From Actinomycetota bacterium (GTDB lineage: Bacteria > Actinomycetota > Acidimicrobiia > Acidimicrobiales > Ilumatobacteraceae), in NCBI GenBank assembly GCA_009701715.1, contig WLJO01000020.1:1-42062 (forward strand): a DNA stretch of 42,062 bases, written 5' to 3'. The translations under genes and the position numbers were made by a program. The notes below the pieces were generated by a model. It was not told where the DNA came from and did no database searches. It worked only from the letters and a program-made list of their open reading frames with translations. Shown here piece by piece: positions 6,841 through 33,016 of this stretch (positions are counted from its first letter, which is position 1; the number at the start of each line of letters is the position of its first letter).

Positions 6841-8238
6841 TCAGCGCGTTCGCGCGAGCCTTTTGAACGCCTGATCGAGATGCCGACGTAGCGCCGCTGG
6901 CTGTTGCACAGCCGCGAGGTCAACGTGCAGGCCCATGTCGAGCGATTCGCCGTACGACATTGCCGTCAGGTTGAACGCCACGCCCACCAGTGGCCCGAGC
7001 GGATAGTTGGCCAGCACCTTGCTGCCCGCGATGTAGATCGGCATCGGGGCGCCACGCAGGCTCGAGGTGGCGAAATCGACGGTTTGGCTCTGCTGGTGCG
7101 CGATCCGCGTCAGCACGCCGGTCGGGAGTGCACTCGCGATGCCCGCCAACTTCTCGAGCGAGGCGGCAGCGGAGGTATTCCGGGCAGAACCGGCCTGTTC
7201 GTGGACGGTGGCGAACCGCTCTCGCACGGACATCTCGCCCGTCGGTACGACGAGTCGTGCCAGCGTGAACGCGTTCGAGCCCGAGGCCTCCGTGCGCGTG
7301 CTCACCACCATGGATGCCCGCAAGGTGTCGACCGGGGCACCGAACTCCCGGTGATAGCAGCCCGCCGCGTCGGCGACCGCCGTGAGGAACGCGGTGTTCA
7401 CCGTGCCGCCGAGGTTTTTCGCCGCGTTCTTGACCCCGTCGATCGGGGTGTGCAGCGTCTCGAACCCGCGCCGGAGCGAGCGCTTTGTCCACAGCGGTGA
7501 CTGTGCCTTGCCAACGTCGGTGAGCTGAGCAAGCAGGCTCTTGAGGACCTCGCTCGCACCCTGGGATCCGTCCGGGTCCGAGAGCAGTTCCCTCAACTGG
7601 CGCAGGACTCCCAGCGGCATTCGCAGGCCGCCGGTCAGGACATCCGAGAGGGCTTCCGCAGCCGAGGGCTGCGGGGTGCTCCCGGGGTCCGTCGACGGGG
7701 TTCCACCCTCCGCCGGCGAGGGTTCCGGGGCGTCACGCTCGAGGTCGACGAACTCCAGGGTGAGTCGCACACCCGTCTCGCCGTCGGCGACAGCGTGGTG
7801 CATCTTCTGGAGGATCGCTGCCCGGCCGCCGCGGAGGCCCTCGATGACGACGAACTGCCACAGCGGTCGTGTGGGCTCGAACGGGTCGAGCACGAGGAGC
7901 GCTGCAAGGTGGTGGAGTTCGGCAAGCGTCGCCGGCTTCGGGAGCGCGATGCGCCGAAGGTGAAAGTTGAGGTCGAAGTTCGGGTCCTCGACCCAGTGGG
8001 GCGGCGTGAGGTTTGCGGGCGTGGAGTGCACCCGTTGGCGCAGCCTCGGCACCGACGCGCACGCGTGGTCGAGCCGCCTGCGCAAGCGGTCGAAGTCCGG
8101 GGCTCGGTCCACGATCGCAAGATTGCCGAACGTGCCGGTGAGCGCAGGGTCCCGGTCAAGCCGCCACATGAGGCCCTCGGCATCGGTCATACGGCTGTCG
8201 AACTGCGGGGCGTCCGGCACCTCGCCGACACTATCCAT
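6841..8238 (-). CDS. Wax ester synthase / acyl-CoA:diacylglycerol acyltransferase (WS/DGAT)
   Basis: 465 residues, typical of the family. It transfers an acyl group from acyl-CoA to a fatty alcohol or to diacylglycerol, making wax esters or triacylglycerol at the membrane face. The acyltransferase motif HHxxxDG is intact as HHAVADG (His147, His148, Asp152, Gly153). RPLWQF at 124-129 matches the conserved PLW segment, and the C-terminal domain of the family is complete. ATG at 8238 is used; Met at 8190 is an alternative. It lies 72 bases after the PAP2 phosphatase on the same strand. That enzyme could supply diacylglycerol from phosphatidic acid, so the pair may form the end of a storage-lipid pathway (inference). 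Confidence 0.93.
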   Translation of the reverse strand: MDSVGEVPDAPQFDSRMTDAEGLMWRLDRDPALTGTFGNLAIVDRAPDFDRLRRRLDHACASVPRLRQRVHSTPANLTPPHWVEDPNFDLNFHLRRIALPKPATLAELHHLAALLVLDPFEPTRPLWQFVVIEGLRGGRAAILQKMHHAVADGETGVRLTLEFVDLERDAPEPSPAEGGTPSTDPGSTPQPSAAEALSDVLTGGLRMPLGVLRQLRELLSDPDGSQGASEVLKSLLAQLTDVGKAQSPLWTKRSLRRGFETLHTPIDGVKNAAKNLGGTVNTAFLTAVADAAGCYHREFGAPVDTLRASMVVSTRTEASGSNAFTLARLVVPTGEMSVRERFATVHEQAGSARNTSAAASLEKLAGIASALPTGVLTRIAHQQSQTVDFATSSLRGAPMPIYIAGSKVLANYPLGPLVGVAFNLTAMSYGESLDMGLHVDLAAVQQPAALRRHLDQAFKRLARTR

Positions 8239-8251
8239 GAAAAGCCAACGC

Positions 8252-8302
8252 TTCTCGGTACCGAGAACCCTGACAACGTGCGGTGGTTTCGGAACCGCAA
8301 AC
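8252..8302. repeat. Dispersed palindromic repeat, copy A
   Basis: A 51-base intergenic element that aligns without gaps to the copy at 32300-32350, with 40 of 51 positions identical by direct comparison. It begins with the perfect 16-base palindrome TTCTCGGTACCGAGAA and contains the shared core ACGTGCGG followed by GGTTTCGG. It occupies most of the gap between the PAP2 stop (8311) and the WS/DGAT start (8238). Like copy B it starts within ten bases 3' of a minus-strand stop codon, so it could be a transcript-end or RNA-stability structure. Confidence 0.8.
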
Positions 8303-8310
8303 GACGGGGG

Positions 8311-8877
8311 TTACCAGCGGACGATGCGACGGGCGATCGCTGCCAGCACGAGCCCGGTGGCGATTCCGCCGACCACGTCGCTCGCGTGGTGGATCCGTAC
8401 GAACGCCCGGCTGAGCGCCACCACGGCTGCTAGCCCAAACCACAAAGGCCGTGCCCACGCTGGGCTGCGCGCCGCAAGCAGCGTTGCGGCGAAGGCCGCT
8501 GCGCTCGCGTGCCCGCTCGGGAAGCTGGAGGTGGACGGCTTGCGCACCCCGTAACGGTCGTCACCGGACTCCGTCGGCCGGGTGCGCCGGAACAGTCGCT
8601 TCACCCCCTGGTTGACGATGAGCGATTCGGCGCCGATGAGCGCGGCCATCACGAACGCGTCGGACGCCGCCCGCTCGGACCCGAGCCCGCGAGCGGCGGA
8701 CACGAGGTGCCAGATGAGCGAGAAGTCACCGAGGTGCGATGCAGCCGTGAACACCTGGTCGGCGAGCGGGTTGCCCCGCAGGCGGTCGAGGAGTTCGTCG
8801 GCCCACTGGTCGAACGCCTCGACCCCGGGGCCGAGGTGGCCCTGGCCGGGCGTAGCGGTGTTGGGGCCGGCGGACAT
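8311..8877 (-). CDS. PAP2-family phosphatase
   Basis: 188 residues with several membrane segments and the full three-part acid phosphatase signature: KRLFRRTRP (motif 1), SFPSGH (motif 2, whose His is the proton donor) and SRAFVRIHHASD (motif 3, with the nucleophilic His). Family members dephosphorylate phosphatidic acid, undecaprenyl diphosphate or related lipids outside or within the membrane. The next gene downstream is a WS/DGAT, which favours phosphatidic acid or a similar lipid phosphate as substrate, but a BacA-like role in undecaprenyl phosphate recycling cannot be excluded. The start at 8877 follows the nuclease gene by 18 bases, so it probably belongs to the same transcript. Confidence 0.92.
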   Translation of the reverse strand: MSAGPNTATPGQGHLGPGVEAFDQWADELLDRLRGNPLADQVFTAASHLGDFSLIWHLVSAARGLGSERAASDAFVMAALIGAESLIVNQGVKRLFRRTRPTESGDDRYGVRKPSTSSFPSGHASAAAFAATLLAARSPAWARPLWFGLAAVVALSRAFVRIHHASDVVGGIATGLVLAAIARRIVRW

Positions 8878-31442: not shown

Positions 31443-32288
31443 ATGCCGCTGAACCCGAATGCCGTTGGATCCGTATCCGAGCCCGCCGAGATCTCGTGGG
31501 CGTCCAAGGACGCCTTGCTCTATGCCGTGGGCATCGGGGGAGGGATCGACGAGCTTGCCTATACCACGGAGAACACCGCCGGTGTGCCGCAACAGGCCTT
31601 CCCAACGTTCCCGGTGGTGATCGGGGCCGGCAAGGCGATGAGCGCTATGGGCATGATCGGTACGTACAACCCTGCGCTGCTCGTGCACGGCCAGCAGTCG
31701 GTCACGCTGCACCGAGCGCTGCCGGTGGAGGGGTCGGCAACCGTCCAGTCCCGCGTCGTGGACATGTTCGACAAGGGCAAGGCCGCGGTGGTGGTGATGG
31801 CGGCCGAGGCGAGGCTCGCCGACGGCTCTCCGTTGTACACCACCACGATGTCAGCGTTCATCCGTGGTGAAGGTGGCTGGGGTGGCGACCGTGGGCCGAG
31901 CGGCGCCCAGAACGAACCGCCGGCACGTCTGCCCGATCACCAGGTTACGTACCAGACGAGCGTGCATCAGGCGTTCGTGTATCGACTGTCGGGCGACCGC
32001 AACCCGCTGCACACGGACCCGGCGTTCGCCAGGATGGGCGGGTTCGACCGCCCAATCCTTCACGGACTGTGCTCGTACGGCTTCACCGGCCGGGCGCTGC
32101 TGCACACGCTCTGCGGGTCGGAGTCCGCGAGGTTCCGCCACATGGAAGCACGGTTCGCGTCCCCGGTGCTGCCGGGTGAGGCACTCACCATCAGCATGTG
32201 GGGAACCAGTTCGGGTGAGGCCGTGTTCACCACGTCCGTCGGCGAACGAGTCGTCATCGACCAAGGTCTCTGCCGCTTCGAGGTGTAG
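31443..32288 (+). CDS. MaoC-family (R)-specific enoyl-CoA hydratase 2
   Basis: 281 residues: a double hotdog. The C-terminal half holds the hydratase-2 motif YRLSGDRNPLHTDP, with Asp185 and His190 as the catalytic dyad, followed by GGFDRPILHGLCSYG. The N-terminal hotdog is degenerate and shapes the acyl pocket. It hydrates trans-2-enoyl-CoA to (3R)-hydroxyacyl-CoA, matching the SDR just upstream. The presence of both halves as separate genes suggests a split MFE-2 pathway for bulky or branched acyl chains such as sterol side chains (inference). GGGAGG lies about 12 bases before ATG 31443. Confidence 0.94.
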   Translation: MPLNPNAVGSVSEPAEISWASKDALLYAVGIGGGIDELAYTTENTAGVPQQAFPTFPVVIGAGKAMSAMGMIGTYNPALLVHGQQSVTLHRALPVEGSATVQSRVVDMFDKGKAAVVVMAAEARLADGSPLYTTTMSAFIRGEGGWGGDRGPSGAQNEPPARLPDHQVTYQTSVHQAFVYRLSGDRNPLHTDPAFARMGGFDRPILHGLCSYGFTGRALLHTLCGSESARFRHMEARFASPVLPGEALTISMWGTSSGEAVFTTSVGERVVIDQGLCRFEV

Positions 32289-32299
32289 CCACGCCATCG

Positions 32300-32350
32300 T
32301 TCTCGGTCCCCAAAACGCTCAAGACGTGCGGCGGTTTCGGGACCGAGAAC
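32300..32350. repeat. Dispersed palindromic repeat, copy B
   Basis: A 51-base element matching copy A at 8252-8302 in 40 positions. Its ends form perfect 12-bp inverted arms, GTTCTCGGTCCC (32299-32310) and GGGACCGAGAAC (32339-32350), around a 28-base centre with the shared core ACGTGCGG. It nearly fills the gap between the convergent MaoC and nucS genes and starts six bases past the nucS stop. It may serve as a bidirectional terminator. Confidence 0.8.
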
Positions 32351-32356
32351 AAGGCG

Positions 32357-33016
32357 CTAGAACAGCGTGAGTTCCTCGGACTTGCGGCCGCGCAGCACGT
32401 CGTAGTCCACCTCGACCCACCGGAAGCCCCGGGACTCGGCAAGCACGCGGGCCTGGGGCTTGATGGTCTGGGCCACGAAGATGCCGCGGATGGTGCCGAG
32501 CGAGGAGTCCATGCCGAGCCGCTCGATGTAGCGGGCCAGTTGTTCGACACCGTCGATGTCGCCCCGGCGCTTCACTTCAATCGCGACGGTTACACCGGAC
32601 GGGTCCTTGCACATCAGGTCCACCGGACCGATGTCGGTGGGGTACTCGCGCCGGATGAGTGTGAGCCCCTCCTCGATCATGTCGGGCGCGATGGCCAGCA
32701 GTTCCTGCAGGTGCGCCTCGACGCCATCCTTCTGCAGACCAGGGTCAACGCCGAACTCGTGTGCGGAGTCGGTGAACACCTCGTGCAACTCAATGATGAG
32801 CTTTTCGCCCTTGGGGTTCTCCACCTCCCAGGTCGTCTCGAGTTCCCGCAGCGTGTTCGGGGCGTTCATCCAGTTGAGTGGTTTGTATGCCCCGCCGTCG
32901 GAGTGGATGGCCACACACCCGTCCGCCTTCACCATGATGAGCCGAACAGCCTCGGGCAGGCGCGCCTCAAGACGTCCCACATAGCTCACGGTGCAGCGCG
33001 CAATCACCAGACGCAT
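32357..33016 (-). CDS. nucS: Endonuclease NucS (mismatch-specific)
   Basis: 219 residues. NucS (EndoMS) replaces MutS/MutL in most actinobacteria, cutting both strands at G-T, G-G and T-T mismatches. The N-terminal binding domain ([27 protein letters not shown]) is followed by the RecB-like nuclease core with Asp133 in GPVDLMCKD, then Glu147 and Lys149 in [10 protein letters not shown]; the spacing agrees with the D-x13-E-x-K site of the archaeal and mycobacterial proteins. The C-terminus LTLF fits a sliding-clamp-binding tail. It lies nine bases after the ABC1 kinase region on the opposite coordinate side, and both genes run on the minus strand. Confidence 0.97.

Follow-up and report, generated by a model that had tools for sequence, protein, structure and literature searches.

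The 42,062-nucleotide stretch of actinomycetotal DNA analyzed here (the window) contains two similar palindromic sequences in spacers between unrelated genes, raising the question of what these sequences are and what put them there. A preliminary description of this DNA had aligned them as two gap-free 51-bp copies, A and B, with 40 of 51 bases identical, a comparison that we could reproduce. A scan of direct pairs found no other pair of 51-mers with 40 or more matches in the window, and surrogate windows generated by a fifth-order Markov model yielded no such pair in six of six cases.

Two worn hairpins in the window

The natural unit of each copy runs from foot to foot, measures 50 nt, and lies inside the 51 bases described earlier. 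Copy A (positions 8252 to 8301, no strand assigned) is an imperfect hairpin with the feet TTCTCGGT and ACCGCAAA, the latter being degraded, and copy B (positions 32300 to 32349, no strand assigned) is a hairpin with both feet intact, TTCTCGGT and ACCGAGAA. The 16-base palindrome TTCTCGGTACCGAGAA opens copy A, as had been proposed, and does not open copy B. Copy B is a long near-perfect hairpin, with fold z scores of -5.0 and -5.7 on its two strands; copy A folds weakly relative to shuffled sequences (z scores of -1.1 and -1.0). No Rfam 15 family matched the window at its gathering score. A run of GTTGTC/GTTGTT units occupies positions 246 to 353, near the start of the window.

According to our own gene calls, named from domain matches, copy A fills the spacer between two minus-strand genes, the stop of a PAP2 gene (8311 to 8877) lying 9 bp from it and the start of a WS/DGAT acyltransferase gene (6841 to 8238) 13 bp from it. 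Copy B occupies the spacer of two convergent genes, a plus-strand MaoC-like gene (31443 to 32288) that ends 11 bp before it and a minus-strand NucS endonuclease gene (32357 to 33016) whose stop comes 7 bp after it. The earlier observation of a minus-strand stop within ten bases is therefore true of both copies, at 8311 (PAP2) and 32357 (NucS).

A dispersed hairpin family in the source genome

Genomes and loci are designated below by G and L numbers, G000 being the source genome of the window. A covariance model made from just two sequences, A and B, found more copies in G000, including three in tandem 63 bp apart. The half-site TTCTCGGTNCC gave 34 hits in this genome compared to 1 for its reversed control, a count in which both arms of one element are scored separately and some hits fall within genes. 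A second, better covariance model was built on twelve copies, in whose alignment four stem pairs are changed on both sides, mainly A-U/C-G and G-C/C-G; the covariation is modest, with four such pairs reached by 104 of 500 shuffles and nine cells by 3 of 500.

The 18 copies of G000 have lengths of 47 nt (eight copies), 50 nt (four), 16 nt (three), 44 nt, 45 nt, and 63 nt, 47 nt being the usual unit length. The 16-mers are bare palindromes, a scar that would follow from deletion between direct repeats GGTACC. What the copies share are conserved 8-bp feet, TTCTCGGT and ACCGAGAA, around a middle that is free in sequence and self-complementary. The core ACGTGCGGYGGTTTCGG, proposed earlier as the shared part, is found without mismatch only in A and B in this 2.8-Mb genome, and the motif ACGTGCGG..GGTTTCGG was rejected as a hallmark of the family because it is exact in these two copies alone. 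Part of the preliminary description proved right: copies beyond A and B exist, they make up a small dispersed noncoding family, and their bias toward gene 3' ends is strong. It overlooked the full hairpin of near-fixed length, its feet, the paired copies of a related genome, and the hairpin brackets around DUF559 genes described below. A and B are two aged, worn members of a real hairpin DNA family. Two other G000 hairpins, at contig 24:9388-9434 and contig 46:3248-3294, have the same feet, a length of 47 nt, perfect 20-bp stems, and unrelated middles and probably represent another subfamily.

Uniform and paired copies in a sister species

The second covariance model matched 6 of 61 genomes, G000 included. 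In G001, a sister species within the same genus, at least 150 candidates were scored over both strands, so that the copy number given here is a lower bound, and in G002, also of this genus, the model had no match. Among 83 counted copies in G001, 81 are exactly 47 nt from foot to foot, and the remaining 2 are cut by contig ends; 1 of 102 elements (L162) was left out of the length count, as its feet were not found. The copies are mostly paired, 63 bp apart, with a linker of 16 bp in 34 of 35 pairs and a start-to-start distance of 63 bp in 33 of 35. The two members of a pair have 34 to 47 of 47 bases in common, and the linker sequences are near random between loci (mid-linker identity of 0.31 over 33 linkers). 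The figures of 83 copies and 35 pairs are a slight overcount, since the loci L143/L144, L129/L151, and L126/L150 each appear at two contig ends. Several G001 contigs end in or beside repeats (these loci and L137), and the repeat family seems to fragment this assembly.

At the G001 site orthologous to copy A there are two 47-nt copies with intact feet, and at the site orthologous to copy B there are two 47-nt copies 63 bp apart. We compared 20 orthologous places of the two genomes by eye: besides A and B, 11 of 18 hold a relic or a bare palindrome in G000, and the rest hold none, including clean empties in which convergent genes abut or overlap. The same comparison of empty with filled sites revealed no clean target duplication, the spacers being highly diverged. 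Downstream of NucS, a strong match among 80 homologous loci, some of which end soon after the gene, was seen in the G001 record only; three weak matches (E values of 0.004 to 0.65) fell elsewhere in their loci.

Relatives across the order Acidimicrobiales

With a free gap, the pattern TTCTCGGT-N(16-46)-ACCGAGAA was found in 29 of 397 genomes of the order compared to about 10 of 397, counted by eye, for the reversed control. In fetched loci, 13 of 14 matches of 46 to 48 nt lay outside called genes compared to 5 of 16 of other lengths, mostly taking the first match per genome. Units of 46 to 48 nt with the same feet occur between genes in other genera of Acidimicrobiales, with middles unrelated between genera. 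In 16 hand-picked 47-mers from 11 genomes (46- and 48-mers excluded; G218, G244, and G198 contributing one each), 64% of middle positions are paired in register compared to 22 to 31% when slid, a level reached by 0 of 5,000 shuffles. As the middles are unrelated yet paired in register, it is foot sequence, length, and self-complementarity that persist through the drift of the middle. Tandem copies 67 to 72 bp apart are present in G038, G289, and G021; in G021, locus L312 (1227 to 1617) contains a tandem array of six hairpins of 46 nt whose feet resemble TTCTCGGT, with start distances of 67, 70, 67, 70, and 71 bp.

A phage origin was rejected: viral contigs contained nine stretches with the exact pattern, seven of them within called genes and two poorly paired, and a core-pattern scan of these contigs gave one stretch. 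Outside the class, the phylum pattern search matched 38 of 396 genomes, and the candidates there were dismissed as well, the 47-bp matches of family f77 resembling by eye one conserved coding sequence and G670 carrying a different repeat. Integron attC sites are similar in that they have conserved ends and a variable middle and that folding decides their recognition; they were set aside on the end sequences, which in our family are unlike the consensus of the R boxes, and our elements stand between chromosomal genes. The family also resembles mycobacterial MIRU-VNTR loci, whose intergenic units vary in copy number between relatives at one locus, but its unit is a palindrome of near-fixed length with conserved feet.

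Positions at gene 3' ends

The bias to gene 3' ends noted earlier is strong. In G000, 12 of 17 clusters, weak matches with E values up to about 0.06 included, lie between convergent genes, compared to a background of 124 convergent pairs among 677 adjacent pairs in a 765-kb sample of this genome plus the window. In G001, the corresponding number is 27 of 48 clusters, with 8 of 48 at contig ends and 4 of 48 flagged inside a gene call. All these positions are based on our own simple codon-usage gene caller. The distance from element to stop is often 1 to 20 bp, and it is for the TTCTCGGT foot that dispersed copies at gene ends were observed.

The hairpins may act on RNA, and one explanation of these positions is that they are bidirectional RNA 3'-end elements, maintained by selection in convergent spacers because they terminate or stabilize the transcripts from both sides; a C-rich tract after the stop would perhaps be a Rho entry site, and DUF559 genes would be insulated likewise. 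The short distance to mostly convergent stops and the in-register pairing of the middles agree with this, as does the sequence beside the elements: within G001 convergent spacers, the stop is TAA in 27 of 37 cases beside an element compared to 8 of 53 without one, and CCC follows the stop in 31 of 37 compared to 11 of 53. CCC after the stop was counted in 6 of 12 cases beside an element and 48 of 236 without one in the G000 sample. Over G001 loci L111 to L152, the excess of TAA followed by a C run stands on the gene side of the elements. However, TAA shows no clear excess in the G000 sample (3 of 12 compared to 22 of 236), and the window gene calls place an element in just 1 of 7 convergent pairs. 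Moreover, the feet are kept in sequence, beyond mere pairing, and the 47-nt length and 16-bp linker are nearly constant. A simple terminator scan detected neither the A nor the B hairpin, with one weak site falling beside copy B, outside the element; on the minus strand of copy A, a TTTT lies 8 bases past the foot, rather than immediately after it as in an intrinsic terminator. At two loci, an ordinary terminator-like hairpin, identified by eye, already precedes the element. Taken with the foot patterns at DUF559 genes described next, these observations make selection as RNA 3'-end elements an unlikely origin of the family.

DUF559 genes are bracketed by matching hairpins

One type of neighbor gene recurs between elements in several genera, encoding a protein with a C-terminal DUF559 domain. 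G001, G218, G038, and G123 have one DUF559 gene each that is bracketed by TTCTCGGT elements, with 2 and 3 foot mismatches in G123 and with two pairs of elements in G038. The gene in G001 is the single one found there by the DUF559 model; at its 3' end the gene overlaps with one element, and 46 bp past its 5' end there begins a copy truncated by the contig end. One DUF559 gene in G244 has an element at its end; its opposite flank lies beyond the contig.

The flanks of 50 of 57 DUF559 matches showed that hairpin feet often agree left and right of a gene and differ between paralogues. We fixed a bracket test, requiring hairpins of 38 to 60 nt with an 8-nt word common to the left and right feet, and examined 51 of the 57 matches, 49 of which were usable. 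Matched hairpins stood on both sides of 21 of the 49 genes, compared to 9 of 2,112 combinations with flanks swapped between genomes, 5 of 240 with flanks swapped within genomes, and 0 of 162 size-matched ordinary G000 genes. The other 28 of 49 had no matched bracket, three known positives among them; the test is conservative, because it missed known brackets in G001, G038, and G123. In a phylum sample outside the order (29 of 56 matches outside this genome with loci, 27 usable), 3 of 27 DUF559 genes were bracketed compared to 0 of 692 swaps.

Short inverted-repeat units with constant ends, in tandem pairs at 63 bp in G001 and at 67 to 72 bp in other genera, would also be expected of MITE-like or tandem-repeat (MIRU-like) elements served by an unrelated transposase, in which case DUF559 genes would merely tolerate the same 3' spacers. 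The left-right foot match, however, tracks DUF559 genes within the same loci, where 18 of 42 gene-called DUF559 genes are bracketed compared to 1 of 59 other genes, and the feet differ between paralogues, so we consider this reading improbable. Feet that match across one gene and differ from those of its paralogue likewise argue against RNA 3'-end elements. As a point against a DUF559 partner, one gene of G244 that by eye resembles D-threonine aldolase has brackets as well.

The bracketed genes, or owners, with TTCTCGGT feet do not form one clade: the tree requires 5 changes, and a single owner clade is not supported. G038 and G123 have owners that fall into one group with L421, a G240 gene flanked on a single side by a 47-nt hairpin with TTCTTGGTAC feet. 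Likeness of feet and likeness of proteins are related weakly at best (Mantel rho of 0.07, P = 0.15; between genomes, 0.12, P = 0.04), and coevolution of foot and protein is not supported. A search for plasmid carriers of the G038 owner protein gave no match.

The DUF559 model detected a single gene in G000, which is related (66% identity) to an unbracketed G002 gene. Locus L202 (18904 to 19833, contig 34) contains a full-length divergent AbiEi-nuclease-like gene that the PF04480 search missed; because this model misses divergent paralogues, the DUF559 counts should be read as minimum values and the loss of an owner from G000 as tentative. At L182 (11453 to 12055, contig 1), between homoserine dehydrogenase-like and DAP decarboxylase-like genes (named by eye), a short AbiEi-like gene without a Pfam match ends where the nuclease domain should begin and is possibly a decayed DUF559 gene. 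Decayed elements together with an unbracketed DUF559 gene would fit a loss of the owner from G000.

An AbiEi-type winged helix joined to a nuclease domain

Most owner proteins are composed of an N-terminal AbiEi-type winged helix (wHTH) and the C-terminal DUF559 domain, for which several score near or below the cutoff (20.5 bits compared to 20.6 for the G218 protein). The residues E, D, E, H, and D are invariant in 10 of 10 family proteins at the EDxHD/Vsr positions, and this E-D-E-H-D pattern is that of the EDxHD nuclease type; the nuclease residues of the owners thus appear intact. Among solved structures, the closest in sequence to the G001 protein are 3r3p, a "Mobile intron protein" (I-Bth0305I; E value of 3e-4), and 3hrl (E value of 0.013). 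PADLOC recognized the AbiEi N terminus in five of five proteins and a homing-endonuclease C terminus in the G001 protein, and no NCBIfam model matched the five owner proteins. Judged by its residues and sequence matches, the flanked protein is a putative EDxHD/Vsr-type, homing-endonuclease-like nuclease. It shares the nuclease domain and the E-D-E-H-D pattern with EDxHD homing endonucleases such as 3r3p but differs from them in being encoded by a free-standing gene, in its AbiEi wHTH, and in its hairpin brackets.

AbiEi antitoxins recognize inverted repeats in the promoters of their own genes, and the AbiEi-type N terminus would therefore suit hairpins that are operator or boundary sites of the AbiEi-DUF559 protein, acting as an autoregulator or a restriction-like marker, with no mobilization involved. 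Brackets on the 3' side, in addition to the 5' side, are not in line with this, nor are the 83 counted copies of G001, which lie mostly at the ends of other genes, or the invariance of the nuclease residues. A purely regulatory role has, in our judgment, only a slim chance of being correct.

The EDxHD family is named in the accessible text of PMC6083498, and that of PMC3710099 presents MTES_1575 as a Vsr-type nuclease fused to other domains. In the accessible portions of the open-licence literature on DUF559, Vsr endonucleases, PF04480, MTES_1575, and AbiEi_4, nothing concerns flanking repeats, and by title none of the open-licence papers retrieved for DUF559 with palindromic repeats is on this subject. 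A search of open-licence literature found nothing joining DUF559 with AbiEi and no Acidimicrobiales work on palindromic repetitive elements; the accessible part of PMC12306157 gives a repetitive extragenic palindrome count for Acidimicrobium ferrooxidans only.

A REPtron-like arrangement with a different nuclease

As far as the accessible parts of the relevant papers show (PMC3733652, PMC8266576, PMC8049555), the closest known systems are REPtrons, formed by REP/REPIN repeats and RAYT (TnpA-REP). Like our family, they have short intergenic hairpins with a convergent or 3' bias, in pairs and clusters, a nuclease gene flanked by the repeats, and more copies where the enzyme is present. Our hairpins are REP-like in being short palindromes (REP elements measure 20 to 50 nt) with many intergenic copies at gene 3' ends, and a nuclease gene with cognate hairpins on both sides is, in the wide sense, a REPtron-like arrangement. 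Unlike REPs, the family lacks a constant GTAG or CGTC tag, the bases outside the foot being varied by eye; its units measure about 47 nt and have conserved 8-bp feet, and the flanked gene encodes an AbiEi-wHTH plus DUF559 (Vsr/EDxHD) protein instead of an HUH tyrosine transposase. The Y1_Tnp/RAYT model (PF01797) had no match in the six genomes with covariance model hits (G000, G001, G024, G028, G038, and G044). In G021, one Y1_Tnp match (E value of 2.4e-7) lies at 4,552,110, far from the 46-nt array of this genome at 247,901, and within the genomes searched RAYT was set aside as the owner. CGTC-tagged REPs are comparable in that these REP-like repeats lack an identified transposase of their own, according to the accessible text of PMC3733652, and differ in their CGTC motif and 8- to 9-bp stems. 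The accessible papers link REPs to HUH tyrosine transposases, and no enzyme is known for some REP classes (PMC3733652).

The explanation that we favor, with moderate confidence, is that A and B are relics of a REP-like hairpin family whose mobilizing partner was most likely an AbiEi-wHTH plus DUF559 protein. In such a REPtron-like system, the DUF559 nuclease would take the place of RAYT and mobilize the hairpins, a role suggested by the analogous gene arrangement. The N-terminal winged helix would read the foot, the nuclease would introduce a nick at the folded hairpin, with single-stranded or extruded DNA as the probable substrate, and the unit would then be copied into new sites by repair. 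Copies would persist mainly in the 3' spacers of convergent genes, where they do the least harm, and local doubling would give rise to the 63-bp pairs. Once the partner was lost or inactive, the copies would wear down, leaving odd lengths and bare palindromes such as those of G000. More generally, whether AbiEi-wHTH plus DUF559 (EDxHD) proteins are a second, independent enzyme class that multiplies palindromic families throughout Actinomycetota, with a separate foot for every paralogue, seems to us evenly balanced; these nucleases may be the missing enzyme of REP classes without RAYT.

REP repeats occur widely among bacterial genomes, and the brackets around DUF559 genes point toward a repeat system of this kind in Actinomycetota. 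With many uniform copies and a bracketed owner in G001 and decayed copies with no bracketed owner found in G000, the two genomes offer a natural comparison of repeat aging. The matched brackets give DUF559-with-AbiEi, an unexplained gene family, a concrete candidate substrate and suggest that bacteria have a second type of enzyme for spreading short palindromic repeats.
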